A stretch of DNA of 64,000 nucleotides from Tubiluchus corallicola. Taxonomy: Eukaryota > Priapulida > Priapulimorpha > Priapulimorphida > Tubiluchidae. The stretch lies in contig JAQGDQ010000104.1 in the NCBI GenBank assembly GCA_030141605.1, positions 534,001 to 598,000 on the forward strand. Direction: 5' to 3'. Made by a program: the position numbers and the translations under genes. This document shows positions 15,601-50,543 of this stretch, one piece after another; the stretch's first letter is position 1; every line of letters starts with the position of its first letter. The notes under the pieces were generated by a model. It was not told where the DNA came from and searched no databases. It saw only the letters and a list, made by a program, of their open reading frames with translations.

Positions 15601-16915
15601 TCTTAAAAGGTCATTAAAATTTTAAATATAGATTCGAGAAACTGACTTCTATTCCTTGCATGTAAATTATATAAACTTGCTGTTAGTGGGAATTTATTAC
15701 TGGTAAATACCAAAGTCAGAATATATCTTCTTTAGATGGCTCATACATATGGGCTTGTAATGGTGTCATAAAAAAAATAACAGAGAAAACCTTATGTGAG
15801 GCTGTGTGAAAAGGTGACATCAAAAGTGTTTTTATAAGACTTTTTGTCTCTTAATTAAACACGTTTCTATGTTTGACCTAACATGTTTTCATTCAGAACT
15901 AATTCTAGAAAATTTGTTTTTGTTTTGACAGATGATAATACCGATTGAAGAAAAATTGTACTACATTCACTACTGTACTACATTCTTTGTTCACATCTAT
16001 TCTACATTCTATATTCACATCTCTACCGCATTCTAGATTCACTTTTGTACTACATTCTATATTCATATCTGTACTGCATTCTATATTCACATCTCTATTA
16101 CATTCTAGATTCACTTTTGTACTACATTCTATATTCACATCTGTACTGCATTCTATATTCACTTCTGTACTACATTCTATATTCACTTCTGTACTACACT
16201 CTATATTCACTTCTGTACTATATTCTATAATTCTATATTCACTTCTGTACTACATTCTATATTCACTTTTGTACTACATTCTATATTCACTTCTGTAATA
16301 CATTCTATATTCACTTCTGTACTACATTCTATATTTACATCTATGCTACATTCTGTGTTCACATCTGCACTAAATTCCATATTCATATATGTTTAATGAA
16401 TGAAGAATTTTTTGCCTATTTTATGACTGATTTGCAAAGTTTTTCTTAAGTGAATTTTCCACGATATTATTACTGGATACATAACAGCATTTTTATTATT
16501 CACGTTGTATTGTAATCAGTCAATACACTACCCAGCACTCATACCATCCATGTAAGATAAAGTACAACACAAACTATGTAGTTTTGCGCCTTACCTTCTT
16601 TTTCATAAAGGTAAAAAACGAAAATAGCGAAACACTGCATACCTGTCTGGATGCTTAACAATCCACCAGTTATTTGCATCTTTATAGGTGTAGCATGTTA
16701 CCTGTTGTTGATGGCTGCTGCCTCTGGAAAGCAAAACAAAATTGTAAGGTGATATTCAAACTTAATACAATAAGCAACTGCAAATATCATGTAGACAGCA
16801 CAAACATAGGTACTTCTATTTTCTTTATTAATGGAGAAAGAACAAAGTTGTCATAATTAAAGAGAATGTGTGTGTGTGTATGCGTGTGTGTGTGTGAGAG
16901 AGAGAGGGGGAGATA

Positions 16916-27790: not shown

Positions 27791-27999
27791 TTTTAACTTG
27801 AAAATCTGAAGTTGTTAGCAATATCCGACACACAAAGTAGAACTATCTGAAACAAAATCCTAAAATCGTAAATTAAAGCAGACTAAATCATCTGCTTGTA
27901 AGTGTAGTCACTTTAGCTTTGCATTTGACAGCAGTTAGTGCGCACAGAATGTTATACTTCCATTTTTAGAAGAGGCGACGAAAACGTTGCACAGGCATA
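27649..27999. other. Upstream region of POMT1, between its first ATG and the LINE
   Basis: No gene is seen. It carries the out-of-frame upper copies of the ~51-bp repeat. It must contain the POMT1 promoter and leader unless a non-coding exon lies beyond the LINE. I see no convincing core promoter motif. Confidence 0.4.
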
Positions 28000-29845
28000 A
28001 TATTGAATATTGATAAGGGGAAAACTACTTGTGCTATATTTTTAGATTTATCGAAAGCATTCGACACGGTACAACATGACATTTTGTTATATAAGTTATC
28101 ATACTATGGTATCAGGGGACGTCCTCTTGCGCTTTTCACGTCTTACCTTACTAATAGGAAACAGTTTACGTCTATTGACTCATCGGAATCTAAACTTGCT
28201 GATATAACCTGTGGTGTCCCACAGGGTTCTACATTGGGTCCATTGTTATTTCTTTTATATATTAACGATCTGCCATCCTGTTCGCAATTTAACACCAGAT
28301 TGTTTGCAGACGATACAAACTTATTTTTATCACACCAAAATATCAAAACATTAGAACATTCAGTAAATGTAGAACTGGACAATATTAATAAATGGATGCA
28401 AGCAAATAAGCTATCGATAAATTATAAAAAAACAAAATATATGTTAATTGGAAACAAGCAACATAACAATAGTTTAAACATAAATATGGGAGGTTGTACT
28501 ATTCAATCTACACAAGAAATCAAATATCTTGGTATATTTATAGATAGTAGAATTACTTGGAAAACACATGTTCAGCATATAGTCAACAAAATTAGCAAAT
28601 TAAGTGGAGTATTAGCTAGAATACGACACTACATAAATGTAGATGCACTACGGCTCTTATATTCTTCTCTTGTCATGCCATATCTGAGTTATGGCATTCT
28701 CGCCTGGGGTAGTGCTTCAGCATCGGTCTTAAAATCATTGGTTTCTAAACAAAACAAGATTATCAAACTTATAACATTTACTAGCAAAAGGGAACATGTA
28801 ACACCTTTGTATTTGCAACTAAATCTACTAAAAGTTCATGATCTGTATAAATTAGAATTGCTCAAGTTTGTACATAAATTCAAAAATAATTCACGTCCAG
28901 ATCTCTTCAGCAATTATTATACTTTAGCATGTCACATGCATCACCACTCTACTAGGTTTGCTACAACCCAATCTTATTTTATTGAAAGATTCAACTCATC
29001 TAAAGGCCAGAATTCTTTAAAACACCAAGGATCTTTGCTGTGGAATTCATTACCAGACCAGTTAAAGTCCAGTAACTACAAAAAGTTAATTTTAAACTAT
29101 AAAAAACAACTTATTGCAGGATACAAATAAATGAGACATTTTGCTTATATACTTGTAATACTATACATATTTTTTTCATTGCTACGACACTTAAAGATTT
29201 TGTTTAAGTTTTTGTTATATTTTGATTTCATTTTGTCTGATTTACAGTTGAAATAGTTTTTCGATGGTTTAATTTATTATATTTTCTTTCTCGACAAATT
29301 CAGTCATTGATGTTATTATTACAACATTTCAGTTTTGTTTTTCTTATTTGCTTCTGTTTCTTGTTTTGTTTTGTATGATTTATATTTGCCTTATTTTTCC
29401 TTGGTTTAATTTATTATATTTTTTTCTCGACAGCTTTGGTTGATCATTCTACTGTTTTTTTGTTTTTTTTGCCGGATTTTTTAGTTAATGCTCAAATTAT
29501 GCATATTCTGTTATCTTAAAAATCTCAAGTTATTTTTATTGTGTTTGCTTCGCATGATTCATAGTATTTTAGAATTGTAAATCTTTCGTTATTTAAACTA
29601 TATGTTCTACAGTATTACGATACCTATCATTCAATTGCCAAATTAACACACATCAACCGAATACAAATTTAAATTGATAACGACGCCATAATTAAGTTTA
29701 TTTAATCATAACTATTTAAGGGTGGCTGACTTGATAACCTACGGGTTCTTCGCTGCCCTTCTCCTTTGCTTTAAAATATTCCATGTAGTCTTTATACTGT
29801 ATTTTTATCGTTCTAACGGAGATAATAAATAATTGAATTGAATTG
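28000..29845 (+). mobile_element. 5'-truncated non-LTR retrotransposon
   Basis: It comprises a reverse transcriptase 3' portion, an AT-rich 3' UTR (29131-29720), a tail block (ggtggctgacttgataac then gggttcttcgctgcc) and an end in AATTGAATTGAATTG. The endonuclease and the N-terminal RT are missing, as expected for 5' truncation during target-primed reverse transcription. The 5' limit is approximate. Confidence 0.8.
28003..29130 (+). CDS. Reverse transcriptase fragment of a non-LTR retrotransposon (CR1/jockey-like)
   Basis: A 375-residue open frame. RT motifs appear in order: AIFLDLSKAFDTVQHDILL (motif A, metal-binding Asp), VPQGSTLGPLLFLLYINDLP (motif B), LFADDTNLF (the catalytic Asp pair, FADD) and IKYLGIFID (motif E). 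The C-terminal region with SLLWNSLPDQLKSS is typical of CR1/jockey-group LINEs. The first RT motifs and the apurinic endonuclease are absent. The start used is simply the first codon of the surviving frame. The frame has no stop, suggesting recent insertion, but the copy cannot be autonomous. It sits just upstream of POMT1 in the opposite orientation. Confidence 0.88.
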   Translation: MNIDKGKTTCAIFLDLSKAFDTVQHDILLYKLSYYGIRGRPLALFTSYLTNRKQFTSIDSSESKLADITCGVPQGSTLGPLLFLLYINDLPSCSQFNTRLFADDTNLFLSHQNIKTLEHSVNVELDNINKWMQANKLSINYKKTKYMLIGNKQHNNSLNINMGGCTIQSTQEIKYLGIFIDSRITWKTHVQHIVNKISKLSGVLARIRHYINVDALRLLYSSLVMPYLSYGILAWGSASASVLKSLVSKQNKIIKLITFTSKREHVTPLYLQLNLLKVHDLYKLELLKFVHKFKNNSRPDLFSNYYTLACHMHHHSTRFATTQSYFIERFNSSKGQNSLKHQGSLLWNSLPDQLKSSNYKKLILNYKKQLIAGYK

Positions 29846-32033: not shown

Positions 32034-33683
32034 TCAGTCGTAAGCAAGTTTAAAGCTTCTTTCCTGTTCCTTCCGTCTGGTGTCGTACAGTTTTCCAACT
32101 TCATCCACTTTCCTTCGGAGCAAGGCCGTGTTTTCATCTACCCATTGCAATGAATCCATATGGGCATTCAGAATTTTTGTAATCTGCCGCATTGGGTTGT
32201 CTGCATCTTGGCTTTCATTTGTTCTATTGAGATGGTCAATGATTTCTTTTAGATCACTCACCATTCTCTTCAACTGTCCATCTATGTTTTCAGCCAACTG
32301 ATATGTGTGTTCCCTTTCCAGATCTGCATGCTGGGGGTAAGAAAGAGCAGGCTGCTCTTCAACAGATTTTTCAAGATTCACCAGCATGTTTTCCAGCTCC
32401 TTCTGTTCAGCCAAAATAAAATCTAGTTCATGATCTAGTCTTTGTTGATCTAATTTTACTTTCTCTACATTTGCATTCAACTGTGTGATCTTTTCACCAT
32501 TATCTATGAGGACGCGATCCCATGTGTTTATCAGAGTGGCTTGATTCAAGAAACTTTTTTCCTGTTCTTCCAATTCCAAAGTCCATTTATTAATGCATTC
32601 TTCCAACTGTCGGTAGTTCATTGCTGGTGGAACAGTGGCAGTAGATGTTACTGTGGCTGTAGTGAGAGCAACTGTGGTCGTAACAGGTGCACATGTGACA
32701 GCAAAAGTCAATGCAACTGTCGGTTTCGGTGCGGAAGTTGTTTGAAATGTGGGCTGCACAGTGGGTGCTGTAGATGTTGCCTGCAAGCTCAAAGGTTGCA
32801 CTTCTGCTGCTGGAGTGGTCTTGGGCATTCCATATGTAGCTACTGTAGTGGATGCAGTGACTGATACGTCCTTACTTGCCGCAGTCGGTAGACCTATTGA
32901 TGTTGTAGTCTCTAACCTAAGACCAACCGTAACTGGCGTACCAGTAAAGCCGCTTCCCAATTGGAATCCTGTACCTGCTGATGTAGATGGCGTACTTAGC
33001 AAAAAACCAGTGTTAGGTGCACTCGCAACAGTGGATGTAGTAGAAAAAGCATTCTCTGTAGCTCCTGTAGTCTGAGCCGAAACGTTTGGTGCCACAGCTG
33101 CTTGGTTAAAATTTAGTGTAGGTGCTGCCTGAATAGTTTGTAATCCCAATGCTGAAGTTCCTGGTGCCACTGCAGTAGGAGTGACAGCTGAACTAGTAAA
33201 ACTGAATCCAGTACTTGGAGTTTGCTTGATCCCAAATGAAAATCCACCACTATCTGCTGGTTTGGTCGGTGCGTTTCCAAAATTGGAAGAAAATAATCCA
33301 CCAGTAGGTTGTGTAGTTGAAGAAACACTGGCACTGCCCAATGCAAACCCAGTAAAGCTCTGAGTTGCTGGTTTTGTCAAACCAGCTCCAAGTTGAAAAC
33401 TCTGAGTTGCTGGTGTTGTCAAGCCAGCCCCTAGTTGAAAACCACTAACACTCTGTGACTGGACGTTAGCTGGTTTTGGAGCACTGAACTGAAAACTACC
33501 AGGTGTTACTGCAGAACTCACTGAGGTACTAGCGCCAAATTGAAAACTAGTTGAAGAAGAGCCAATGCTCTGTGCTGCTGGCATTGTACTGGCTCCGAAC
33601 TGAAAACCACTAACAGCACTGGTAGTCTGTGGAACTGTTGAAGGCGTTCCAAATGTAAACCCCCCTTGCTGTTGTGAAGCCAT
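32034..33683 (-). CDS. NUP62: Nucleoporin p62 (NUP62), coding region in one exon
   Basis: 549 residues. NUP62 forms the FG-lined central channel of the nuclear pore in complex with NUP58 and NUP54. Residues 1-220 carry GFxFG, FQFG and FQLG repeats in a Ser/Thr/Ala-rich, charge-poor matrix. These include a tandem SFQLGAGLTTPATQ / SFQLGAGLTKPATQ pair. A Thr/Ala/Val-rich linker follows. From about residue 355 the Nsp1_C coiled coil begins MNYRQLEECINKWTLELEEQ and continues with ENGEKIT-like DNGEKITQL, VKLDQQRLDHELDFIL, YQLAENIDGQLKRM and RRKEQERSF. Order and spacing follow vertebrate NUP62 (522 residues). The start is the ATG before ASQQQGGFTFG. A 5' non-coding exon is possible. Many internal FG units have degenerated to FQLG or FALG. 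Confidence 0.97.
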   Translation of the reverse strand: MASQQQGGFTFGTPSTVPQTTSAVSGFQFGASTMPAAQSIGSSSTSFQFGASTSVSSAVTPGSFQFSAPKPANVQSQSVSGFQLGAGLTTPATQSFQLGAGLTKPATQSFTGFALGSASVSSTTQPTGGLFSSNFGNAPTKPADSGGFSFGIKQTPSTGFSFTSSAVTPTAVAPGTSALGLQTIQAAPTLNFNQAAVAPNVSAQTTGATENAFSTTSTVASAPNTGFLLSTPSTSAGTGFQLGSGFTGTPVTVGLRLETTTSIGLPTAASKDVSVTASTTVATYGMPKTTPAAEVQPLSLQATSTAPTVQPTFQTTSAPKPTVALTFAVTCAPVTTTVALTTATVTSTATVPPAMNYRQLEECINKWTLELEEQEKSFLNQATLINTWDRVLIDNGEKITQLNANVEKVKLDQQRLDHELDFILAEQKELENMLVNLEKSVEEQPALSYPQHADLEREHTYQLAENIDGQLKRMVSDLKEIIDHLNRTNESQDADNPMRQITKILNAHMDSLQWVDENTALLRRKVDEVGKLYDTRRKEQERSFKLAYD

Positions 33684-35102
33684 AACGTGATATTATTCGG
33701 CAGTCAAGAAGATGGCATAAAAATCTAAGAGCGACAGAATTTCTACAGAAACATTCTTGAAACAATTCGCGCAAAAAAGCGACGAATACGACAAGCAATA
33801 AGGGAAATCGACTCAGATCGTTAAAACGCACACTAAACGGCGAGGATTTCTACGTTCCCATCACTGACTATCTGAGTGATACCGCGTGACATACGTGGTC
33901 TGCAGCAGCCAGCTGTTAGGTTGTTGCTTTCAAAGTGGTGGTTAGTGAGCGAGTCTTATTCGTCACGTTTGTGACGATGATGATACCACACGAAGAGATT
34001 CATAATCCATTAGGATGTCTCTAGATATTGATTATTAAAAGCATCGGCGTCGATTGATCAGGACAGCTGTTTAGCATTTTGACAACCATAACCGATGGTA
34101 ACAGTGAGCACGTTGTAAGATGAGTTGACGTCTTTTATCATTTTTCGCGCTTTGCACATTTAATCGTATCAGCCTTGGTTTAATTTGATTTATAATTTAA
34201 CTTATAGAAAAACATGAAATACAGTCACAGAGCTTAATAATGGCAACGATTGAAGTTGTTCACATATATGGCATGGCAAACTTCATAAATGGCTAAACTC
34301 TTTTCAGTTTTTGGATTCTGTTGGTAATATCTAAATTTACGTATTCGTACATCCACATGTCATTGCATACTGGATGAATGGTGTTAGCTTACATGCGTCA
34401 AACATGCTCTGACTGCTCCTAAACTTGGTACTTATTTTATGATCAGCTTCAGTGTAATAGGTTAAACTATAGAATAGTCATATAGCCTGCCCATCATGCT
34501 GAGAATTTTCAGAATAGACAGCTTTAGAATAACTGAGATTCAAGTTTGAATGACAAAGTCTCCAAATTGGCACAGGTGTGTTAGATTTAGATATGTATAG
34601 ACTCCCCCAAAAGAAATAGCTGGAGACAGTGTTCCAGTTAAAAAGTTAAAACCACATAAAAATATTTTTTCTGGCTCTCACAGTCACCCATCAAATTAGT
34701 AATCAGATCCAATGCAGCTTAACTTTTGTAGCTACTACAATTGCTCAGTTATTCTCCTCACCACAGTACAAAAAGCTGGAAATCTTACACAGCATTTTGT
34801 TTAAGAGAGCAAAAACGAGCTAGTAGCTGACAAAATTTTTGAAATTTGACTATTTTCCATTTTTGAATGCCAAAATTTTGACTAGTTTCCAATTTTTGGT
34901 AATTGTGGACTATGCGGTCTGTGCTGTCGTGACATACCCCAGGTTGAGAACTTCTGCATTTCACAGACTTGTCCAGGTTTACCATTATGTGTTCCAAGTA
35001 AAAAACTGTTCATGTGTACGTGGTTTTTCAGGTTTAATTTAGCAATGTGATACTGACGTGCTTTTTTCTGTGTTGCCTAGCAAACACAAAATACATTGAG
35101 AC
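33684..35102. other. Divergent intergenic region between NUP62 and the Eph-like gene
   Basis: The two genes are head to head, 1.4 kb apart, so this interval should contain both promoters. The NUP62-proximal 300 bp are noticeably richer in CG dinucleotides (for example gcgacgaatacgacaag). No TATA box could be assigned with confidence. Confidence 0.45.
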
Positions 35103-36600
35103 ATGTTCTTTTCTTTGAGTTCTTCCAAGATGTGGTGGTGCATAATTCTGTTTAGCTTGGCAATTTACCCTGGTTTTATTTTTGCCGTTGAATATGGTAA
35201 GTCGTTAATCTTTGTATATGATTAACTGTGCTTTTCTTCTGGACATCAGTAAACTATATAATGATGGAATAAACCCATAACTCATTAAATCGTTTAATCC
35301 TAACACTGTTAATTAAAGATACGAAAAGTGACAAAATTGGAACCAGGCACCCTTGTGTTACAAACTTGAAACAGCTTTGGTTGCTGGACACAGTCGTGTG
35401 CGATCAGTGTCTGTTCTGAGTCAAACCTGATGACTTGCCAATTTTTATAGCATTTGAAAATATTTGTTTACTCACAGTAAGATAATTAATAACCAATTTT
35501 GATTATTTTTTTTCATTTAATTTTAAACCTCTTCAATACTTGTCTATGTCTCTAGCTCTACTATCTCTTTAAACACCTACAAACTCTGCAAAACAATTTA
35601 TCAAGCATTGGGTTTATTTCATTGTATTTATAATTCACGTAATTTATAATAGTGCAATTGAAATTCTATGTACAATTAAATGTTAAATTAATTTTGTTTT
35701 GTGATGACTTCTTAAAACTGTTCCATTGATTTAGTAATACTGCAATTGTGTGTTTCAAATAAACTCTTGAAAAACCACATTCTGGGATACCATATTTTGG
35801 AGAATCGTGTGAAATTTCACAAGTGGAGATATAGGATCATAGGAGTCACCCACCAGAACCTAAATTGCTGTCTTTGTTTAGATATTAGGACCTAATCTTG
35901 TCCCATTACGCACATGAAGTAACCTTTCTTGGAATGCTAGATACTTTGAATGGGGCGAATAATAGGAAAAACAATGAGCTGCTGCCAGTAATATGGGGTG
36001 ATAACCTGCAGGTGATATCCCCCCCCCAGAAATTGATAAAAAAATCTGTAAGCGATGAGAGTAATAACAGTCATATCTTACATGAAATCAGTGTTGTGTA
36101 AGATGGCAAACTCATTTACTGAATATTAGGATTTTAATCATTTTTAGACCATCCAGACTCTAAAAGTGGTCAAACAGACATCACCATTATCACCAGTGTA
36201 AGCCATTTTGAGCTACAGAATGTTATGTATTATATTTTGTATCATTTTTGAACAATTTCATTACTAATATGTTACATACTGACTGCAGCTTAATATGAAT
36301 GGTTAGCTTTATGACATGTTTTACATGTGTACATGATTTAGGAACGCTACTTGATACTGCTGCTAGCTTTTCTAAATGGACATTGTATGATAAGGATGGA
36401 GACGGCATTGGCGTGAGTACTTTAATTTATGTATTCGTGTTTGTTAGTTTTTGGGTTCCATAATGTTTGCATTTTATTTTGCTTGCCCATGGGCACTAGG
36501 CAGTGTCTTTGAATTTTAGTTTAAATTTTATTTATTTATAATTGTTTTATAATTGTGGCTGTAAAAAACAGAATATATATATATACTATTTAAAGTGATT

Positions 36601-36641
<41 letters not shown>

Positions 36642-36967
36642 AAACCTTGAATGCTTTTTATAGTCTCTTAATGATCATTTATTGATTTCAGGTATTTTGT
36701 TTTACTTTCCCCCTTAAATAATAATTGCAAGACTATAGAAGGCATTGAACACTGAACATTTATGTGAAAGATTGCAAGTCTCAGGAGACCGCGCCATATT
36801 TTCAGTAAACTTTTGACTTGCATATACATTAGTGCTAAGCCTAGTCTTCGAGCAAGCTACCCTTATAGCACTGTTAATGTCATACATAGTCCTTAGCTGG
36901 GAGTTATCCGTTATCTGGTTTCATAGGTGGCTTGCTGCTCTTTCACATGTGTCTCTCTCTCATGCAT

Positions 36968-37064
<97 letters not shown>

Positions 37065-40000
37065 CTCTCTCTCTCTCTCGTTCTTTTCTTTCTTTCTAAT
37101 TATGACTATTTTTCTCGCGAGAATTTCCCCTTGTAACTGTGCTAACATGTAATAAACAAACAGTAAAACAGGCTTACAGGACTGCGGAAACGTTTACAAG
37201 AGATAAACATGTGGTAAAAAACATTTTGTCAGAATAACATCATGAATGGGAATGCAGGATGCAGACTGTATCTGTCTTTTTATGGCAACTATTTTTAAAA
37301 GATTTTTTAGTAGGAAACACTTCCTGTTGTGTGCATACACAACGTAATTTTGCTGACCCGAAAATTTGTTGCTTGCACGTGGTGAAAGGCAGGGCTAATA
37401 TTCTGAGCCTGGGCATTAACACATGATACATATTTATATTACTTCATTGGAAAAGTTTGTTTCAAACGTTTCTGTCATTAAGGTATAATAAGCTGCTCGG
37501 TTTTATAGCATTGAACAACCATAAATGCTAAACATTCTTCTGTAGGCTGTTCAGTATGAGAATTACATGTTAACAACACAGACACATTTGTAAACTTATT
37601 CTAGAATGAGACTGTGTTTAAAGCCAGTTATACGTGCTAAAGCATTGCACTTTTAGTTAACAAGCAGTTTAAACACATTGGTAAAAAAGCACTGTGTGCT
37701 TTCTTAAATATATTTATAGACTGATAGATTGTATGACACTTTTCCTGTATGGCAGCTACTCATCCATTTACTATCCAGGTTCAGTATCTGACCGTGGTTG
37801 ACAAAAGAATGCCTTGACTAGTCAGCTGTTCTCCTGCTCCCAAACTATAGCCTCATTTATTTGCATAATTTTCTAATCTACTTTAAATTGTAACAAATAA
37901 AATGCTCTTCTTAATTTTTAGTGGGACGCTGATGAGACCACAAAAAGTTTTCTCACTCGAAGCTTATACCATAGAGGTCAGATGAATTGGCTGATTTCGC
38001 CTTACATAGACCTGCATGGTGTTGGGATGGTTGACCTGCATTTAACAGTGAACTTTACTTCATGTCATTTTGACAAGTTACTGTTTGACAATTGCCGAAT
38101 GTCTCAAACTGTTAAACTCTTGAGTCAGAATCAGACGTCGTTCACCCTTCTCAAGAACCCGTCAACGCTGACCGACGATTTTGAAGCGGTAGCAGAAGTT
38201 CTCCCACACGACTATGATGAGGCCACGGAAGTTAACATTTACGATGTGGCGACTCCGATGGCGACAACCGGTATGTACGTCGCCTTAGTTGACTATGGCA
38301 CCTCCGTAACTTTGAGCAAGATTACGATCCGACACAAATATTGTAGCCATGAGATTCATAAGCTTGTCATATTTGAACAAAGTGTGCCATCTCTCGAACC
38401 GCACACGGGGCGGTGTGCAGACAATGCCGTATCTGCCGCACCTGTGCAACGCACTTGTAACAGTGAAGGCGATTGGTCGCCACTTCGAGAGGAATGCAAA
38501 TGCAGAAGTCGTTTCGTTGGTGTTGGAAATCGATGCATTGGTAAGACAACGACTGAGAAATGGTTGAGATTTTGTCTTAAAATACATTTAGAGATGACTT
38601 TAAATTTTGAAAAATGTTGCTTTGTCTCTGAACATTATTTGTGGATGTACCTGTGGTCCTCTTGCCCATTGCTAGGCCACTCCTTGTTACCTGCTACTCA
38701 ACTGCATGACCAAGTACTCAATTATGGCTGACAGTGCAAGCAGTCGGAGAGTCCTGTTCGAGCCATGTTCCAAACGAACAAACTTCTCTAGTTTTAGGTT
38801 TATTGAGTACTTGATCAGTAAGTAGAGGATGACCACCTGTCTTCATTGTATGCTGAGGTTATGAATACAGACCCAATACCATCTATCCTTAAGCAGTTAT
38901 GTATGGCACCATTACTTTTCTTTTTCTCTTTTGCACTCATCCACCCATATACCAACAGGAGCTGAATAGTGCATAACTGCATGAACAAGCTCTTTTTACC
39001 CTAACTAAACTACCCTTAAATCTCCAAAATATGAGTTTGCAAACTTTACTTTTGTCACAGTGGTAAATAAAGGCAGCAGAGTTTGTAAAAACTAAGAATT
39101 TGTTCTGGGTAGTACATGTATTTTTGTAGTTTGTAGAGCTTGTAATGAATTAAATATGACAAATCAAGGCAATAATCATTATATTCATTTATGAATGTAC
39201 ATGTATTTTTGTACTACATTGTAATACAAATGACAATTATAAATGGGCCACTGCATTACAAATGAATAACCCAATATACTATAACTATAACTATAACCCA
39301 AGGTTGACTGCAATATTATTTTTATATCTCTTTGTTAAAGATTTTTAGCATTTAATCTTTTGTAACTAACATAGTGCATATTACGCCGAACCTGAAGATA
39401 TCGTCCCTTATAACCGAAAGTCCCTTATATCCGAGTACCTTATATACGAAGATTTTTACATAGGAAAAACGTTACGAAAAATCGGGACCGGTATTTGTAG
39501 TCGCCTTATAAGTGAGTACCTTATACCCGATGTTGACTATAATATTATTTTTATATCTCTTTGTTAAAGATTTTTAGCATTTAATCTTCTGTAACTAACA
39601 TAGTGCAGATTAAAGCTGTGCATTCACCAAGCAAATTTGTCTTCATGGAGATTTTTGTTTTGCAAATTTTTTCTGTAATATCCAACTCTTGTTACAACAA
39701 AAAACGTCTAACCATTTTGTCATAATCAAATAAGAAACATCTGTCCACAAAACCCTATAACTATAACCTATACCAAATTGAATTAGAAAAGTCGGCTAAT
39801 TTTTATGTTTCTGATGTTGTTTTATATTCACTCTTCAATGAATTATTTACATGTATTTATTGCTAATAGTGATTGTCATTTCAGCTCAGAAGTGTACAGC
39901 GTCAACGTGCAAAAATGGCGCCACCTGTTCTGAGAATTCTGGAACTTTCGTTTGTCATTGCACTGAAGGATACACCGGACAGATGTGCGAGTCAGTATGT

Positions 40001-43000
40001 GAGTAACTGACATAATTTTTGCTGTGTAATTTTCTGTAGACTGCATTTTTAGAGCTCTTTTAGCTCGCTGTAGTTTTAACTTCTTCTGTTATAATGAAGG
40101 ATTTATATATGTAACGCAAAACGGTTAAATCCAACTCATCCTAATGTTTGTGTACATTGGTTTATCTTAATTATGCAAGCAACAAAGGCGAAGCTGATTT
40201 TGAGAAATAAAGTGTGTGGGTTCACAAACGCATGCATTGTACTACGAATGATACTTATTGGTGATGGGGAAAACAAATTCTTAAAATGAAAATAACAGTT
40301 AACGCCCACTTAAGCAAAGACATGGTTTTTATTCAGACAACGTATACTTTTATTTAGGTGGATTGCTGCATGAGTATGATCGTAACTGGTCAAAACGTTG
40401 TAGGTGCTGCTTGTGTCTGAATAAAAGCCATGTCTTTGCTTAAATGGGTGCTGGCTTTTATTCTCATTTGAATGGCATTTGTACATGCAGTGGGAGCTAT
40501 AAAAATTTTCTAGCTTTTTCTTACATTATACGTTGCAAAATTTTGTTAGATTTCAAGCAAGCTTTTTTTATTTGTTGCATTACATGTACTTTATTGGCAT
40601 ATGTTTGTACGTCAGTTCTTTATCTTGCTTTCCCTTTCTTTTCATTCTTGTTTCTCCTCTTTATGTTTCTTAAATCTGGAATGTTTGTACTGTGAAATCA
40701 AAAAACATAGTTTGATATTATTTAAGTTACTATGGTTGTAACTTGTTCCATCATATATGTCAAGCAAATACTTTAGTGTAATTACGTGGATGTATTTACA
40801 ATGTTTTACAGTAAACAGTGGACCCGATGAAATTTCTATCGTATTCGGTCACTCGAGTCGTGAAGGAGAATGCGTGTCCGAGGGTCAGCGGGTCAGTTTC
40901 CGCTGCATAGCGTCCGGCGGTTACGAGCCGATATCAATCGAGTGGTCTAGGGATCAACATGCACTGAATGTGGGAAACAAGGGCAATGTGGTAAAGCAGA
41001 CTGATGGAACTTACGTGAGTGGTAAGATTTTTTTAATTGATTCTTATCAGCTGCTAAAACGTGGCACCATTCCTGCTTTACTGTCCTGTGCCTCTAAACT
41101 TCTTTTTACATTTTGACTCGCCGAAACTGGGATTTGTCATTCACTGGGGCTTTCTAAATGATGATGTCCGTACCGAAAACCAGAAGTCGGTACATCAGCA
41201 AAAAGATATCCTCTAAAATGAGCCACTGAACCAGCAGAGGCATCTTATCCATGTTATGATGCATATACATCCTCCCTCTATGAGGTAAGTAGACGTAATC
41301 AGTATGTCGAGTATAAACACCTGGAGTGAGTATCGAACCTAGGCTGTAGCAAACTATTTAAATGAAACGTAGATGTAAGACTGCTCGAATATTCGCTCCA
41401 TGACAAAATTGCCAAGTGTTATCATCGCTTTCATATGTTCAAGATTACATTTAAATCTGAGCAAAATATAGTGTGTATCCCATAATTCTTCGGGCAGAAC
41501 TTTGGACCTACTGATTATCACGCTGTGGAAATGCACTAAAAGAGTCTTTAGAAGCAATATATGAACAAATATCGGAACATTTTTGACATGCTTCAACTCG
41601 TTACTAAATTTTGGGTTCTGTGTTTACTAACTCAGACGACTATTCCATTTATTTCTGTGCAGATGTGTTATGTACATACACATTTCCCTACCTGTTAAAT
41701 TTGGTCTTGCCACTTCTGTCTTCAGTCATGTGACCAGGCAGTTGGCCAGGTATGCAATTCAAGTTGATATGGCGTGAATGTTGTGAATTGATATCTATTG
41801 TTTTTTTGCAAGTTATAAGCGCCAAAACTCAGGGAGACCACATGTAAGTGTCTAATTATATTTATTGAACTGCTTTATACAATTAGGGGTATTTTGCTGT
41901 TTTTTTTTGTATAATTATAGACAAAAATCACGTAACATAATTAGGTAACTTACCTGTATCAAACTTGTGTTTTTCGCTAAAAACTTCATGCTGTAATTTG
42001 TTATTACAGATAAAATGACAATTGCTGCATATTAAACATATTTGGATGTTCTCGAGTTTAAATGTAGTACAGATGTAGCAAGAACCATTATTTCTCTTTC
42101 ACCGATACAGTTTTAAGCCGATTATTAGTTGCTACAGTCAGCTGTGTTGCAGTCGCTGTCACGTTTCTTACAGCTAATACTCCATGATTGTTTCAGTTAT
42201 GGAATCTCCGACGCTAACACTGTCGTCCCAGCATCATGGTTCAGTCATGACCTGTGAAGCCTACAACAGCTTCAACATCATGACTCCACTAGAAGCCAAT
42301 CAGACACTTCAAGTTTGTTGTGAGTTTTGCATGGTTAATTACTCTCTTATATTTACTGTGTTTCATTTTTTATGTTTATTGTTTTTATTCATACTCATCT
42401 ACTGGCTAGCAACTGATTCAGATATACAAGTCACAAAGTTCGTTTTTGTGCAGAATATTTAACTGACACAAATGATAAAATAAGTAAATTGGCGCAGTTA
42501 TAAGCTGTATGTACTTTCATAATGGAATCTGTTTATACCGTTTACCAAGGCTCTAGGTGAAACAAACACATTTAAGTTTCAGTTTCCTTTGCTGAACATA
42601 TTGCAATGATGCTGGGTATTCGCTGCCAAGGAGTCTGATTGGTCGCACATCTAGTCAATTTGTTTCTTAATATTTCGGATGCCATGTAATCCAGGTTCAA
42701 TGCCAGGTTGATGAAAAACTTTATAAAGACAGACAGAAATTTGTAGAATTGCCAGTAAATTTGTCCCGTGTGCATCATTTATTTTTATTGTTATTAGTAC
42801 TCTTTGTTGCTAAAATGTTACATACAATGTTTATTTATCCATATTTACATTAAAATTTGTATTTAAGCAGTTTTAAAAACTAATAAAAGCAATAATGTCG
42901 TATACTTGAAACCAAATTAAAACTATATACAAATGAATTGGAAATTTTACAAAATGCGCACAACATAATCCCGGTTATCATGCTAGTTGTGTCTACGGAA

Positions 43001-46000
43001 CAGGTGCAGTGATGGTAAAAACACCTGTCCATTCACCTGCTGAATCGACAAGACCATTCCATATCAGCAGTTTTACACGGGGTAGCAAAGCTGATATGCA
43101 AAGGCTTCATAATGGATCGAACTATCACATTATAGGGGTAGGGGGTGAAAATAAATGGTGTTTTACCGTCGTTACAATATGAAGCATTTACATGAAACAC
43201 GAGCTTTGTTGTCTGTACAGTGGAAGCACCAACAAAGCAATTTTTTTACTTTGAGAGAAGAAATTTCAAGTCTGAGCATATGCTGACTACTTTTTCTTTA
43301 ACTGTGTCTGTTAACTTTAGTTCTACTAAGGGATTTGATTTAAACAGCACCAGTGATACAATTGGACTTTGTTGGTGGGGGCAGGTCAGGAATTTGACCT
43401 CTGAACACTGCTGATGACTTTTTAATCTTTACATTTTAGAACAAAACAAATTGTATGACTCTCTAACCTTAAGCATGAATAATAAAAAATAGTGACATAT
43501 GGTAAATTGTGATTACTTAATATTATATTTATTCTTGTTCCAGTTGGCCCTAAAGAAACTGATGATATACACATCCAGCATAAAGTAATAGCTGACGGCA
43601 TCGAAGATTATGTACTTGTGCATTGCTCGCTGGCAAATGTGTTTTCGAATAGTTTCAAATTTGAATGGAAATTTAATAACAATGAACTGCCGGAATCAGC
43701 AAAACAGGTATGTCAGTAAACATCTGGGCCATCTAGATGGGTTTTGCCCTAATTTTGATGAGTTATGGATAGTATGAATAGTGTGTTGTACATTACATGA
43801 GTTTCTTTGACAGTTCGAATTGGGTAGATCTAATTCTATTGCTTTTCCCTGAAGAAAAAAATATAAAACACTATCTTAAACTGCTAATTTTATTCTGAGG
43901 TTTGAAATATTTTGACATAATTTACCTCTTTTTGCTTTTGTGCTAAGAGAGACGAAGGTCAGAGAAGCTTAGTTGAGATTTTGAAGTCGGAACTTGACAA
44001 GAGTATTATGAGCGGGAACACTGCAGATTTCTCCTGTGCCGTTAAGAATCTCAAGGTCGTCGGAGGAGAAACTGTCTCCCAGTATGCAACCTATGATAAA
44101 ACAGTAGTAGCAGACAGACATAAATCAGGTAATAATTGTTAATTAGCAGGTGAGTGTGGAGTTAGTGTAGTTGGTCTGAGTTTAGTTCTAGTGGGGGATT
44201 TGATTTAAACAGCTTCAACAATGCAATTTTTGAACTTTGTTGGTGGGGAGGGGGGAGGAATTTGATCTCTGAACACTGTTGATAACTTTTTAATCTTTAC
44301 GTTTTAGAGCAAAACAAATTGTGTGACTCACTCTCTAACCTTAAGCATGATTAATAAAAAAATAGTGACATATTGGTAAATTGTGGTTACTCAATTTTAT
44401 ATTTTTTCTATAAAATAGAACTACATGTAATCACACTTGTTTTTGCATAATTCTTTTCAACTGAAATTGTCTAAAATTATTGTCTTATAGCTTTGGCATT
44501 CACTGCCATAGTGACTAAACTTGTCATTTTGCAGTAGAATAGATTTTTACCTTGTCTGTATTTAAACAAAGGTAACATTTTAGTAAGAATGTAATGTAGA
44601 AGAATGGTCAGCTTATTGCTCAGCAGCCAAAGTTAAGCAATGCAGAGCCTCCTCTGTAAATGAATAGGTGCCTGCTTCTATACTTCATTCGTCTTATAGC
44701 CTGTAGCTGTTTACTTCTTTGAGGGAGAATGCTTAAGCCAAGACTACTTTTCTATTCAGTGCGACATTAATCTTTGATAACGAGCTAAGTTTTGCATGTG
44801 CCACATTAAATCCTGGATCTGGATCTCAACTTGCTGAGTGGTAAACTGTGTAAGAAAACAACACTTTGTTCTGCATATTGCAAAATTTTAAGCTAAGGTT
44901 CTAATTTATTGACCTTTGTTGCTTTGTAAGAAACCTCTACTTACCCTGTTTGCCTTCTTTTACTTTCTAAAAATGCGAACGGGATGATTTAAATACAAGA
45001 TGATGACACAAAATATAATTTAGTTTTTTTATATGTGTACATTTTATATGTCAAATCAAAGTGGGCCAAGCAACGATCCCTGAAGAATACCTTTTTTGTA
45101 TTCATCAGGTTTAGTGTTACGCTGTTCCCGTTTATTCATTTATTACTCTCAGATAGAAACTGAAAAGTTTGGGACTGCCTCACCCAGCTAGTGATTGATT
45201 GCTCTTGGTGGCTTCATTATTGTTCATTTGTTTATTATTTACAGACAAACGTTGGAAGGTTTGGGTTGCCGTGCTCGTGTGTGTTGTTGGTGTTGCACTT
45301 GGTATCATTCTCGTGGTTTACTTTGTGAGAAAGTAAGTGTTACTTTTGTTGTCGAGTCTTCACTGTCAAAGTTCAAAAGGGCTCACAGTCCAAATCTTAA
45401 CTGAGTTTGTTATTACCCAAGCCTGAGTACAAATACGAGTCTGTAAGTTTTATTGATAGCTAAGAAGTAACTACTAGATATACTCTTGGTGCAGCTTTAG
45501 TAGTTACTGAAAATCGTACATTTACTAAGCCATACCCCCTATCGAAGACGCGGTTCTTAATTATCATTGAAGCCTTAGTTCTTAGTAGAGCCATAGTTCT
45601 TACTGAAGGCTTAGCTTCTACTAAAGCCATGGCTTTTGCTGAAGCCATAGTTCCTATTAAAGCCACAATTATTACCGAAGCCTTAGCTCTTTCTGAAGCC
45701 ATAGCTTTGACTGAAACTGTAGTCCTTACTGATGTCATAGTTCTTACTGACACCATAGGTCTTATTGAAGCCAGAGTTATTACTGAAGCCATGTCTTACC
45801 AAAGTCACAGCTCTTACTAAAATCATAGATATAAAATTCAATAGAAGCCATGAATCTTACTACAGCCTCAGTTTTTATTTAACCCGTAGCTTTTACTGAA
45901 GTGACATCTTATAGTGAAGGTATAACTTTTACTGAAACTGCAGCTCTTATTGAGCCATTGTTCTTACTGAAGCCATGTAGCGCCTATTAAGTTGATAAAA

Positions 46001-46321
46001 ATGTCAAACAGACAAATTAAACATACTACCTACAACCAGGAGCTGATGAAAGTGTCACACAGACAAATTAAGAATACTACTTACAATCAGGAATTGACAA
46101 GTTGCAGAGATGATTTTACCATACTACTGTTGCATCGGAAAATTAAATGTCTTACTTGCAACCAGAACATGATGCAAAAAAACACCGCAGAGACAAATTA
46201 AGCATACTACTTGTAACCAGTATGTTAATTCTTACTTTGCTTCCACTTTCTTTTTTCTAGGAGCAGAAAGAAGATCTCGGATAAACCAGATGTGGAAACA
46301 GAGAACGTGCCACCAAGCTGA
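35103..46321 (+). CDS. Kinase-less Eph-type receptor: Eph LBD, sushi-like, EGF, two Ig, TM
   Basis: Exons: 35103-35196, 36342-36412, 37922-38540, 39885-39998, 40812-41021, 42197-42319, 43544-43707, 43948-44128, 45245-45332, 46261-46321. Phases agree; 1725 nt, 574 residues. Residues 1-30 are a signal peptide. The Eph-type ligand-binding domain starts at about 33 (GTLLDTAASFSKW, then MNWLISPYIDLHG, FTSCHF, GMYVALVDYGTSVTLSKITI, KYC). Next comes the Eph sushi-like module (GRCADNA, TCNSEGDWSPLREECKC). Residues 262-299 are an EGF domain with six Cys. Two Ig domains have Cys-Trp-Cys cores (SFRC/IEWS/VMTCEAYN and VLVHC/FEWKF/ADFSCAV). The TM helix (WVAVLVCVVGVALGIILVVY) is followed by a tail ending NVPPS. 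The tail has no tyrosine and no kinase. Some canonical Eph LBD cysteines are absent. Start: first ATG after a stop; ATG at 35130 is an in-frame alternative. A ligand-binding, adhesion or decoy role is inference; the ligand is unknown. Confidence 0.85.
36597..36640. repeat. (TA)n microsatellite in intron 2 of the Eph-like gene
   Basis: About 19 TA units, preceded by a shorter TATA run near 36573. Confidence 0.9.
36969..37080. repeat. (CA)n followed by (CT)n microsatellite
   Basis: An almost perfect CA run of about 46 units, then about nine CT units. It lies in intron 2 of the Eph-like gene. The long frames it creates on both strands are not genes. Confidence 0.97.
39303..39613. repeat. 229-bp tandem duplication containing a MITE family 3 remnant
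   Basis: The block gttgactgcaatattattt... (39303-39384) recurs as gttgactataatattattt... (39532-39613), offset by exactly 229 bp. Between them lies a partial family 3 MITE (39388-39539) with the words cgtcccttataaccgaaag and ttatacccgatgttgac. It lies in intron 3 of the Eph-like gene. Confidence 0.75.
40284..40469. repeat. Long inverted repeat (hairpin), ~56-bp arms
   Basis: The left arm (40284-40340) contains cttaagcaaagacatgg and attcagaca. The right arm, reverse complemented, contains tttaagcaaagacatgg and attcagaca with few mismatches. The loop is about 75 bp. A fold-back MITE or a transcribed hairpin are both possible. It is in intron 4 of the Eph-like gene. Confidence 0.75.
43318..43530. 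repeat. Intronic duplicated block, copy 1 (just upstream of Ig2 exon)
   Basis: It matches 44182-44402 over about 215 bp, for example gggatttgatttaaacagc, gaactttgttggtgggg-like and ccttaagcatga words. Copy 1 ends 14 bp before the first Ig2 exon; copy 2 lies just after the second Ig2 exon. Confidence 0.8.
44182..44402. repeat. Intronic duplicated block, copy 2 (after Ig2 exons)
   Basis: Counterpart of 43318-43530. The offset is about 870 bp and the orientation is the same. No third Ig-like frame was recognised downstream of this copy. Confidence 0.8.
45480..45975. repeat. Degenerate 18-bp minisatellite in intron 9 of the Eph-like gene
   Basis: Many diverged copies of an 18-bp unit close to gaagccatagttcttact. 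The 3n period keeps frames open on both strands, yielding repetitive Ala/Thr/Val-rich translations without meaning. Confidence 0.75.
45990..46220. repeat. Four imperfect ~60-bp repeats
   Basis: The words acagacaaattaa, catactac and caaccag recur four times at about 60-bp spacing, directly before the last exon of the Eph-like gene. Confidence 0.6.
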
Positions 46322-49300
46322 AGATACGCATGGCATTAGCAACCGAACACACTGTAATTGTTCCAGATTTATGCTGCATTAACCAAAAACAACATTGAAA
46401 TTAAAACATGGTCGAGATTATGATAATTATTATATTGTTGCAAAAAGTGTTGCTTCAACATGGCTTGAGGCATCTTGTACATAGGTGAAACTTTAAAAGC
46501 TGAACATGTGCCAAGTACTAATTTCAAGCATGTGGTTTAATTTATAGGGCAGTTGCACATTGGTTGGCTGATTGGCTGCGTGCCTTGTATATTGACGTTA
46601 AACATATTGGTCTATCGCTCCGCCCCCGCTGCAACGTAAGCACGCTCAGCAGCATTTGGGATATCAGCTCATGCAGGACAACTGTTTAAGCTAAACTAAA
46701 CTAAACTAAACTAAACAACGTGACACCCCCCTCACAACTAATATCTTATTAGCAGATAAAATGATTGCTCTTTTTCATAAACACAAATTTGCAGAGCAGC
46801 AGCTATTTTAGCACAAAATTAACACTTCAATTAGCCAAAAAATGACTTTTCAATTTAAACAGAATGTAGAGACGAAGTTTCAAAGCACTACAAAGTACAG
46901 AGACACAAATATAGTAAAGAAACTAAGCCAGTTAGCCTTGCTTTACAATAAATGAGCAACAAAAAGATTAAGTCTCTCTTGCCTTTAAACATAGGAACAT
47001 CAAACCTGCGATGTATTTTTCTATATTAATTGATCATGTGCTTGTCTGCAAGATTTACTGAGATTTTTTTGTATTTTTCCATTTGTCAGGCTACGGAAAT
47101 GGAATAAATTTGACTGTTCCATTCCATAGATGACCCTTATATTGAATGCCTGAGTCCCAATGGTATCTTTTAACCTTGATTATAACCAGAAAAATAGCAT
47201 AAAATTAGCTAATATTACATTGATCTATAATATAAGTTTTGACCACATTTGAATTGATTTTGACTGTGAAGATCTCGTTGAAGTATAAAAACTGGCCTGA
47301 AAAGAAAATATTTTTTGTTTTGTCTTTATTTAAAGTTAATCAAATAGTTGTTTTTATCTAACTTGCAAAGCCATAAACTAAACTAAACTGCGTATTTTCT
47401 TGATTGCAAAATGGTTTAATCAGCAACTTGTAGATGTAAGCGTTGTGCATTTCTTACTATAAACGAAAGTAGACTATATATTTCCACTAATTCACTTGCA
47501 ATTTCAGTTGACGATATTAAAATCTAGAACAGAAATCTGACAATATTTCTCCCGCTAACTAATGAAAAGTTGAGCATTTTTCATAACAGTGTTGGACGGA
47601 GCTGTAGCTAAATGTCCTGAGCGTACCTGCTGCAGGGGTGTGTGAAATAACTTGCACGCTGATTGAGCAGTTAACAAAAAAGATTGACATTATGTTAGAT
47701 GTCAGTTGTCTAACTGTCAGTGCTCTTGCACATCAGCAAATTGACCAGTGCACTTGTACATTAACCAAGTGGACAATGCAATTGTGCATTAGTTGGCTGG
47801 AGGTGCGCTTGTATATTGACTAAGTGAAGATGCAATTGCACACATCAGGGTTCAAGTTACCTAGACATAGACATAGAAACACAATGTGTTCTTGAAGAGA
47901 CAATCATGTTTTCACAAAAGAAAAAACGATTGCTGTCATTAGCTGAAAGTATAAAAATTTGGATTACGAAGTGTCAGATTAGTGAGGGATTACTATAATA
48001 AGTTTTTAGTTACATTACGAGCTTTTAGTTTGTTTTACATAATTAGTATTGATTACTTAAGAAAATTTACATACTTTTGGGTATGACACTTGCCTTTTAA
48101 ACTACTAGTAACTTGTGTGTATTAGTGATTCTACGTAGTACAAAAGATTTGTGCAAAGTGTATGTACTGTTGTAAACTATTGTTCAAACACTACTTCTCT
48201 TCTTGTCTGCTGTGATAAATTTGTTGCCGTGAATTTTGCATCCCTGTTTAAAAAGATGGTATTTATAGATTTGTTAGTTTTATATATATAAAAAAAGTTA
48301 TACCTGTTTGATGTAGCAAGATCTGAAGATTACTTTGTTTTTTGTTTACTATTATTTTGCTTTCATGGAAAATGATCCCATGCATTCTTGAAACGTATTT
48401 CAACTTGAAGTATTTTGTCATAAATGTGTAAAAGCAAGTCTTTTAACTGAGCAACTAAAACTTCAATTTAAAAACAGTCCCAGCCGCACCTGAAAATAAT
48501 ACAGAAGCGGTAAAATTAATGCTCAAATTGCTCAATTGGTATTGACCAATTCAATTTTGATTTTTAAATGTTTTATTTAAATTTTAAGCAACTTCATTGT
48601 TGGTTATGTGGTAACTGTATAAAGTAGTTATGTCTTTTTGTGCTTTTAATTGCACTCCTTTTGGGTTTTTATGATTTATTCAGAAAGACCTTCAAAATTT
48701 TGTTGACCATGTACTTATGTTACATAGAAACAACATTGTGGTGTTTTGCTACCTATATTATCAATTAAATAGGTAATGATTTTATAATATTATTTTGTGA
48801 TATTGCTGAACTATTTGCTCAGTTCTGTTATTTCAGTCATTAAGCTTTTACATATTTTTGCAATTTGATTAACCTGTGTGTGAGCTTGGCAAACAAATCA
48901 ATTGTTAGATAATTAAACCAAATAGAGCTAATGTAAATTTTGTTTTTTTGCCTTTTGAATTTTAATAATGATCTCATTGTGATTTTCTGCAAAGTGATAA
49001 TGAAATGTTTAACTTTTGTAATATTTTTTACTTATACACATTATCTCGTTTATGGACTATGGATGTCATATTTCATTATAAAGTTTTGCTGGCTATGTTA
49101 AATGCAGTTCGTGGTGATTACCAAGTGATGCTGACAGCAAAAAATGTCTTTAAACAGCTACAGCCCTAATGCTGCAATAATCAAGCTAGGTACAGCTAGT
49201 GTCCAAGGACTGGCAATTAAACCCATAATAGCTAAGAGCAAAATTTAATGCTACCTGAGTGAGAGCAAGGGTGATTTATTACTGTAATTTGTCCTAGCCC

Positions 49301-49698
49301 TAAGCTTAATGAGTACACCCCTGTACGTATCCATTATATCCTGTTAATCACGTTAGACACCTTTAGTTCAAACTGTTACTAGTACCTTAGAAGACCACTG
49401 AAACGGAACAGGGTACAGCCAAATGGACAAAGAATTTACTGCATTAGTATACCGTGCATGCAAGTCAGGTGTAGAAAATTTTTATTATTATTTCTTTTTC
49501 CAACTATGGTGTAAGTTTGGAGATAACTCAGTTTGCAGAATATTTTCCAAAAAGTAGGTGCGTTAGTCTGAGGACTTAACACAGTATAGTACAAAGTATA
49601 TACATACAGTATAGTACAAATACAACATAGTACAAATGCTTTATTTTAGTGTTTAGTGAACACAGTAAAAACTGCAATAAAACAATAAAAAGCGTAAA
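46322..49698. other. 3' region of the Eph-like gene and intergenic space before the lectin
   Basis: A candidate AATAAA lies at 46947-46952. A (CTAAA)n run is at 46688-46717. A short block (tggttggctgattgg ... cttgtatattgac) at 46555-46605 recurs at 47775-47821. No protein-coding exon was recognised on either strand. Confidence 0.5.
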
Positions 49699-50543
49699 AT
49701 GGATAAGCTCTTCAGTCTTCTGGTGCTGACTGCATATTATGTAGTGTGGTCGAATGTCATTTCTGCACACCTTACATCGCCTGGCCAACCAAATCCATCA
49801 GAGCAAAACATGCAAGATTTGCTGACCAGAACAGCCAAAAAAATCCACACCTTGGAAAGAGAACTGACACAAATAAGCCATGCTGTAGATAAACTGCTTC
49901 AGAAAGTGGAGTTGATTGAGCGGAATACTGCTTGCGGCTGTGGATTTGAGAAAATAGAAGACGGTTGTTACAAGGTGTTTAGTGGAGATGCTAAGCAATC
50001 CTGGGAAAAAGCAAAGACCACATGTAATGCACTTGGTGCCAGACTGGTTTCCGTAGAAACAGCCGAGAAACTGGCGGCAATGTATCAAAGGCTCATTGTG
50101 CATGGATATGCGTGTAAGTTTCCTGTTAGAGGCATTTTGTGGTTTTTTTTTACCTTAGTTTGGTTTAGAAAAGGTACATCCTACAGATGGCAGAAACTTT
50201 GTAGCATTTGCATTATAAAGGGGTACAAATATCAACTTTATCTATTATTTAAACAAAAAATGTCACAGTTTGCTGGACTGATAAGCTCTTAATACCCTAA
50301 CGAGTAATTATTTTTTCCCTTTCAGTTTGGTGGACAGGAGGTAACGACATAGAAGAGGAAGGTTCGTGGGTTTGGGATGGTCTGAAGACTCCATTTAATT
50401 ATACACAATGGGCTGGAGGGCAACCAAATGATGTAAACAATCAAGACTGCTTGCGGATTAGCCCCCATAGCAGTTACCCGAGGACATTGATATGGTGGGA
50501 CGATCCGTGTGATCAACTTGCTAACTTCGTTTGTGAAATGTAA
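49699..50543 (+). CDS. Secreted C-type lectin with coiled-coil neck, two exons
   Basis: Exons 49699-50113 and 50326-50543 (phase 1 intron), 210 residues. The N terminus (MDKLFSLLVLTAYYVVWS) is a signal peptide or anchor. A heptad-like neck follows (LLTRTAKKIHTLERELTQIS, then VDKLLQKVELIERN), which should oligomerise the protein. The C-type lectin domain begins near CGCGFEKIEDGCYKVF and has WEKAKTTCNALGARLVSV, WWTGG, WVWDG, QWAGGQPNDVNNQDCLRI and a final IWWDDPCD...FVCEM. The Ca-site motif reads QPN instead of EPN (mannose type) or QPD (galactose type). The second Ca-binding motif is WDD instead of WND. Calcium-dependent glycan binding is plausible, but specificity cannot be read. A likely poly(A) signal is at 50792-50797. 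Confidence 0.92.

Follow-up and report, generated by a model that had tools for sequence, protein, structure and literature searches.

Structure of the gene

The window analysed here is a 64,000-nucleotide (nt) stretch of the genome of the priapulid Tubiluchus corallicola (assembly GCA_030141605.1, contig JAQGDQ010000104.1, positions 534,001–598,000 of the forward strand). Its forward strand carries, at 35103–46321, a gene whose predicted product bears the ligand-binding domain (LBD) of Eph receptors on a stalk of EGF and immunoglobulin (Ig) modules. The gene consisted of ten exons in one open frame of 574 amino acids (AA). All nine introns were of the GT-AG type and the phases fitted at every junction; the 574-residue protein predicted by the initial annotation could thereby be rebuilt.

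Exon 1 (35103–35196) contains the start codon and the signal peptide, recognised by a GT donor and a hydrophobic N-terminus, and ends in phase 1. The N-terminal part of the Eph LBD lies on exon 2 (36342–36412, phase 0 end), where the Ephrin_lbd match starts from residue 33, and the bulk of the LBD together with the Eph sushi module (Ephrin_CRD) lies on exon 3 (37922–38540), as assigned by Pfam and alignment. Pfam also placed the EGF domain on the symmetrical phase 1-1 exon 4 (39885–39998) and the first Ig domain on exons 5 (40812–41021, first part) and 6 (42197–42319, second part), both phase 1 to 1. Exons 7 (43544–43707, phase 1 to 0) and 8 (43948–44128, phase 0 to 1) encode the two parts of an Ig-like domain 2 that is below the Pfam cut-off. 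The transmembrane (TM) helix was located on exon 9 (45245–45332) by hydropathy, which together with the frame assigned a cytoplasmic tail without tyrosine to exon 10 (46261–46321), ending in a TGA stop (46319–46321). A candidate poly(A) signal, ATTAAA, starts 79 nt past the stop (46400–46405, forward strand). The G+C content was 0.452 in the exons versus 0.339 in the introns, and the observed/expected CpG ratio was 0.93 and 0.45, respectively, so that CpG depletion was confined to the introns. Judged from its sequence, this is a real animal gene with a predicted type I membrane protein as its product.

Repeats were also observed within the introns. The last one, intron 9, contains an 18-nt repeat ladder at 45550–45941 with 13 overlapping 81-nt copies, which is largely open on both strands (118-AA frame on the forward and 111 AA on the reverse strand). 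A pair of adjacent stretches of intron 6 recurs in intron 8, 865–868 bases further on (43316–43464 and 44181–44332), being 81% and 87% alike.

Domain architecture of the predicted protein

Pfam analysis of the full protein revealed Ephrin_lbd at residues 33–196 (E 1.6e-9; 38.6 bits against a cut-off of 27). The initial annotation had proposed a hidden Markov model search for this domain, the lack of which would have counted against it; the match was significant. It was followed by Ephrin_CRD (209–249; 27.2 bits, cut-off 27), EGF (265–293; 25.9 bits, cut-off 21.5), and a first Ig domain matching Ig_3 (319–393; 31.2 bits, cut-off 30). The second Ig region, scanned alone, gave a C1-set score of 16.7 bits, under the cut-off of 21, so that the C438 / W / C495 pattern is the main basis of its assignment. 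The twelve top hydropathy windows fell on two stretches only, namely 11–29 (signal) and 528–556 (TM); the best TM window was 535–553, and the end of the helix was set at residue 553. The single signal stretch and single TM fit one protein. The domain order in the initial annotation (signal peptide, LBD, sushi, EGF, two Ig domains, TM) was thus recovered, although for the second Ig only weakly.

The tail past residue 553 contained no tyrosine, as previously described, and was counted at 21 residues instead of 20; it ends in VPPS, where no PDZ motif was recognised. Fibronectin type III (FN3) domains were absent from the 16 Pfam families matched by the full protein up to E 1, for which the stalk pieces were also scanned alone, and neither a tyrosine kinase nor a SAM domain was matched in the 574-AA predicted product of this gene model. 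The earlier statement that Ig and EGF modules stand in place of FN3 and that the catalytic parts are missing was borne out for this product.

Homology of the LBD to Eph receptors

An Ephrin_lbd search of the 343.5-Mb genome (2344 contigs) returned at least four matches, all above the cut-off, on contigs C44 (175 bits), C28 (172 bits), and C1477 (51 bits; locus L003 below) and at the window gene (37 bits); these counts are lower bounds. In the same family search, none of the 14 control genomes had a match. A phmmer search of the whole protein against the PDB ranked EphB2 third (E 1.5e-11, residues 38–273), behind two Notch/Delta EGF chains.

Two alignments were used for further comparison. A1 contained the window gene, L003, and two typical Eph-like loci, L001 and L002, which are so called from LBD and sushi module alone (L001 by Pfam; L002 by genome search and alignment), while A2 contained only the window gene and L003. 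With E up to 0.001, the A2 profile retrieved 24 Ephs and, aligned to the EGF part, four Notch chains, making 28 distinct sequences from the PDB. Its best match was EphB2 (E 3.7e-18), with an alignment covering both the LBD and the sushi module. The A1 profile also retrieved the PDB Ephs; however, L001 and L002 by themselves should suffice for this, which makes A2 the fairer test of homology. Based on the Pfam E value of 1.6e-9, the genome search with no match in the controls, and the retrieval of Ephs by the two-gene profile, the LBD of the window gene is, at the level of sequence, a true Eph LBD homologue, beyond chance.

A structure predicted from only the 206 AA of exon 3, without an alignment, reached a mean predicted local distance difference test score of 31.5, too low for use. 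Among possible relatives of the LBD, 64 pattern matches in viral contigs and 14 in prokaryote genomes were followed up by tblastn, and none was confirmed.

Conserved and altered residues of the LBD

The locus L003 is a second divergent Eph LBD (C1477:267325-270795, 1429-2311), identified by Pfam and by reading by eye, and it was the sole sister of the window gene found in the genome. The two share 66 of 199 aligned residues, while the identity of the window gene to the typical loci was 38/194 and 36/196. In L003 the start codon, a hydrophobic signal-like stretch, the LBD, and the cysteine-rich part form one exon with a phase 1 end, as read by eye.

The EphA2 residue numbers used here are our own assignment to the alignment columns, based on an alignment of EphA2 and the numbering of that receptor. 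In A1, the cysteines of C105-C115 were retained in all four loci, as were the aligned sushi cysteines. At the C70-C188 positions the window gene has R/S and L003 has N/E, while L001 and L002 both have C/C. Since both partners are absent from both divergent genes, the bond seems to have been lost as a unit and not by random decay, whether in a single event in a shared ancestor or in two separate ones. The initial annotation had several LBD cysteines changed; this holds for the C70-C188 pair and does not extend to C105-C115 or the aligned sushi cysteines. A retained C188 was considered and rejected, as the alignment shows the retained residue to be the following cysteine in the sequence.

In a survey of Eph sequences, C105-C115 and C70-C188 are called invariant LBD disulfides whose cysteines are present in choanoflagellates too (PMC6485061). 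Because the pair is reported even there, the absence of C70-C188 is more probably a derived state than an ancestral one. Next to the binding face, the N-W-L motif was retained in four of four loci, and it is preceded by Q-x in the window gene and L003 but not in L001 or L002.

Exon borders and origin of the head

Exon 3 of the window gene (619 nt) starts at AG/TGG in phase 0 and ends in phase 1. The main LBD exon of L001 and L002 (685 and 676 nt) likewise starts at AG/TGG in phase 0 with a phase 1 end, so that a start at the W codon and both phases are common to the window gene and the two typical loci compared. The shared borders and phases, along with the reported presence of the lost disulfide in choanoflagellates, favour derivation from an Eph gene. 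Of the two origins left open by the initial annotation, 'ancestral or derived', the head of the window gene would accordingly represent the derived one.

Modules lying between phase-1 introns can be exchanged without breaking the frame. In the window gene, such introns bound both the phase 1-1 EGF exon and each pair of Ig exons. It may be proposed, as an idea that we hold tentatively and consider not quite probable, that the Eph head is a mobile module. In this priapulid it would have been exon-shuffled onto an EGF/Ig adhesion stalk, giving a small family of kinase-less contact receptors (the window gene and perhaps L003) in which one LBD disulfide was lost and a new ligand acquired.

Comparison with known systems

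The Eph receptor tyrosine kinases (EphB2, EphA4, and EphA2, with L001 and L002 on the priapulid side) have an LBD and sushi module homologous to those of the window gene, which has kept the cysteines of C105-C115 and those aligned in the sushi module; L001 and L002 also agree in LBD exon borders and phases. The window gene differs in carrying EGF and Ig modules instead of FN3, in having no kinase or SAM match, in its 21-residue tail with VPPS at the end, and in lacking C70-C188.

As reported for EphA7-T1, this 610-AA splice form with its own 11-residue tail binds full-length EphA7 and lowers EphA7 phosphorylation (PMC7717530). Like the window gene, it combines an LBD head, one TM, and a short tail without a kinase (PMC7717530). 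It differs in arising by splicing from a complete Eph and in keeping FN3, whereas the window gene encodes a different stalk and a kinase-less predicted product. By analogy, EphA7-T1 may be regarded as the nearest tested counterpart for kinase-less action of the window gene.

An Eph LBD without tyrosine kinase has also been described in the Eph-like sequence of the choanoflagellate Salpingoeca urceolata; that sequence is a transcriptome fragment, and the choanoflagellate sequences, unlike the window gene, have FN3 repeats and the LBD disulfide cysteines but no sushi/EGF-like region (PMC6485061). Outside eukaryotic Ephs, the uncharacterised protein ADIWIN_0470 of the bacterium Winogradskyella psychrotolerans contains an Eph LBD ascribed to gene transfer in a second survey (PMC6993872). 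This protein is bacterial, and the feature that it has in common with the window gene is an Eph LBD. The two surveys are those of Arcas and others (PMC6993872) and Krishnan and others (PMC6485061).

According to these surveys, variation of the Eph layout in general is limited to the number of FN3 domains, the length of the cysteine-rich part, and the absence of SAM, with numerous partial gene models (PMC6485061), and the LBD appears Eph-specific in vertebrates, with one bacterial LBD reported (PMC6993872). In the open-licence literature on Eph evolution, unusual LBD proteins, and truncated EphA7, no title pairing an Eph LBD with Ig and EGF domains was found, which is weak evidence of absence, and database entries for an LBD on an EGF/Ig stalk may exist. 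If the present reading is true, an Eph head on an Ig/EGF stalk that is genomic and not an isoform would indicate that the head is usable apart from the kinase. This would contrast with the nearly fixed Eph architecture across animals in the two surveys (PMC6485061, PMC6993872), and would provide a natural test of the role of the head alone, whether in adhesion, as a decoy, or in reverse signalling into ephrin cells.

Proposed function and alternative explanations

We consider it fairly probable that in the window gene a head of Eph origin was linked to EGF/Ig modules by way of phase-1 introns, and that the product is a kinase-less receptor for adhesion at cell contacts or a decoy, possibly with a ligand other than an ephrin. 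The head (LBD and sushi module) would have descended from an Eph receptor gene. The parts beyond the phase-1 intron that follows the sushi exon (remaining cysteine-rich region, FN3, kinase, and SAM) would have been replaced by EGF and Ig modules, a TM exon, and a short inert tail, presumably by exon shuffling. The product would most probably bind a membrane ligand at cell-cell contacts and so confer adhesion, or else compete with true Ephs for ligand as a decoy; neither mode would produce a tyrosine-kinase forward signal. A stalk of adhesion type between an Eph-homologous head and an inert tail suggests binding at contacts without forward phosphorylation. As only one of the two LBD disulfides remains, the ligand could be an ephrin bound in an altered manner or something else. 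Since the predicted product has an Eph head on an EGF/Ig stalk, spans the membrane once, and lacks a kinase, its probable role is to adhere to ligand or sequester it where cells meet, and not to signal as Ephs do. Expression, surface location, the adhesion or decoy action, the ligand, and exon shuffling as the route are inferences.

A different use of the same architecture is possible but rather unlikely, in which the ligand of the galactose-binding-like jelly-roll LBD is now something other than an ephrin and the protein functions in adhesion or recognition as immune or allorecognition receptors do, with the Ig/EGF stalk as its working context. The stalk itself would suit such a role, as would the loss of C70-C188 in both the window gene and L003 and the adjoining C-type lectin gene (49681–50540). 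The genome, however, showed no large variable family, having at least four LBD matches of which two are divergent, and the N-W-L motif by the binding face is retained in all four aligned loci, with Q-x in the window gene and L003. We would place adhesion or decoy action, with an ephrin or an altered ligand, ahead of non-ephrin recognition.

Truncated Eph splice forms exist (PMC6993872, PMC7717530), and the gene could accordingly be a true Eph receptor whose kinase lies further downstream, reached by alternative splicing, so that the TM and tail exons belong only to a truncated isoform. This is very improbable, since EGF and Ig occupy the place of FN3 upstream of the TM, and no kinase was matched by Pfam in the 13 scanned of the 50 downstream forward-strand open reading frames (ORFs; at least 50 AA), although a small exon among the remainder or past the window could still encode one. 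Least probable of all is a decaying or chimeric model, in which an Eph-like pseudogene LBD adjoins an unrelated Ig receptor gene. A model predicted from genomic sequence and a divergent LBD (38.6 bits versus 173.8 by Pfam at the typical locus L001) are compatible with it; against it stand the unbroken frame over ten exons with fitting phases throughout, the retention of all LBD and sushi cysteines but one pair, the G+C and CpG values of the exons, unlike those of the introns, and the presence of one signal stretch and one TM, as in one protein.

Several points weigh against the adhesion or decoy receptor proposed above. The gene model was predicted from genomic sequence alone, the Ephrin_CRD match is barely above its cut-off, the second Ig falls below its own, and ligand binding is wholly an inference. 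The support from L003 is also qualified. As read by eye, it has no introns inside the LBD, unlike the window gene, and its identity to the typical loci (62/211 and 71/267) is nearly equal to that to the window gene. Pfam matched only Ephrin_lbd in it up to E 0.5 (50 bits), so that its sushi and EGF-like parts lean on the aligned cysteines. Reading by eye extended past the main exon by approximately 108 nt of a possible next exon, and beyond that part L003 may have another architecture, even a kinase.

Surroundings of the gene

Among the same 13 of 50 downstream ORFs, only a C-type lectin and an SH2 domain were above the Pfam cut-offs. The former lies at 49681–50540 on the forward strand, its second exon being above the cut-off and its first below, and the SH2 exon at 62099–62263 on the same strand. 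Upstream, a reverse transcriptase of the long interspersed nuclear element (LINE) type (RVT_1, 82 bits) is encoded by a 386-AA open frame at 27970–29127 on the forward strand; as this frame is open, the element may be young. Two protein O-mannosyltransferase exons were found on the reverse strand, one with PMT_4TMC above the cut-off (6731–6994) and one with MIR below it (15297–15602). The reverse strand also carries a nucleoporin exon at 32034–33692 (Nsp1_C, 107 bits by Pfam), which we take to be Nup62-type. This gene is a single long open frame within an otherwise intron-rich window. A tandem repeat of approximately 66 nt (22 residues, by eye), open on both strands, was observed at 5265–6014.

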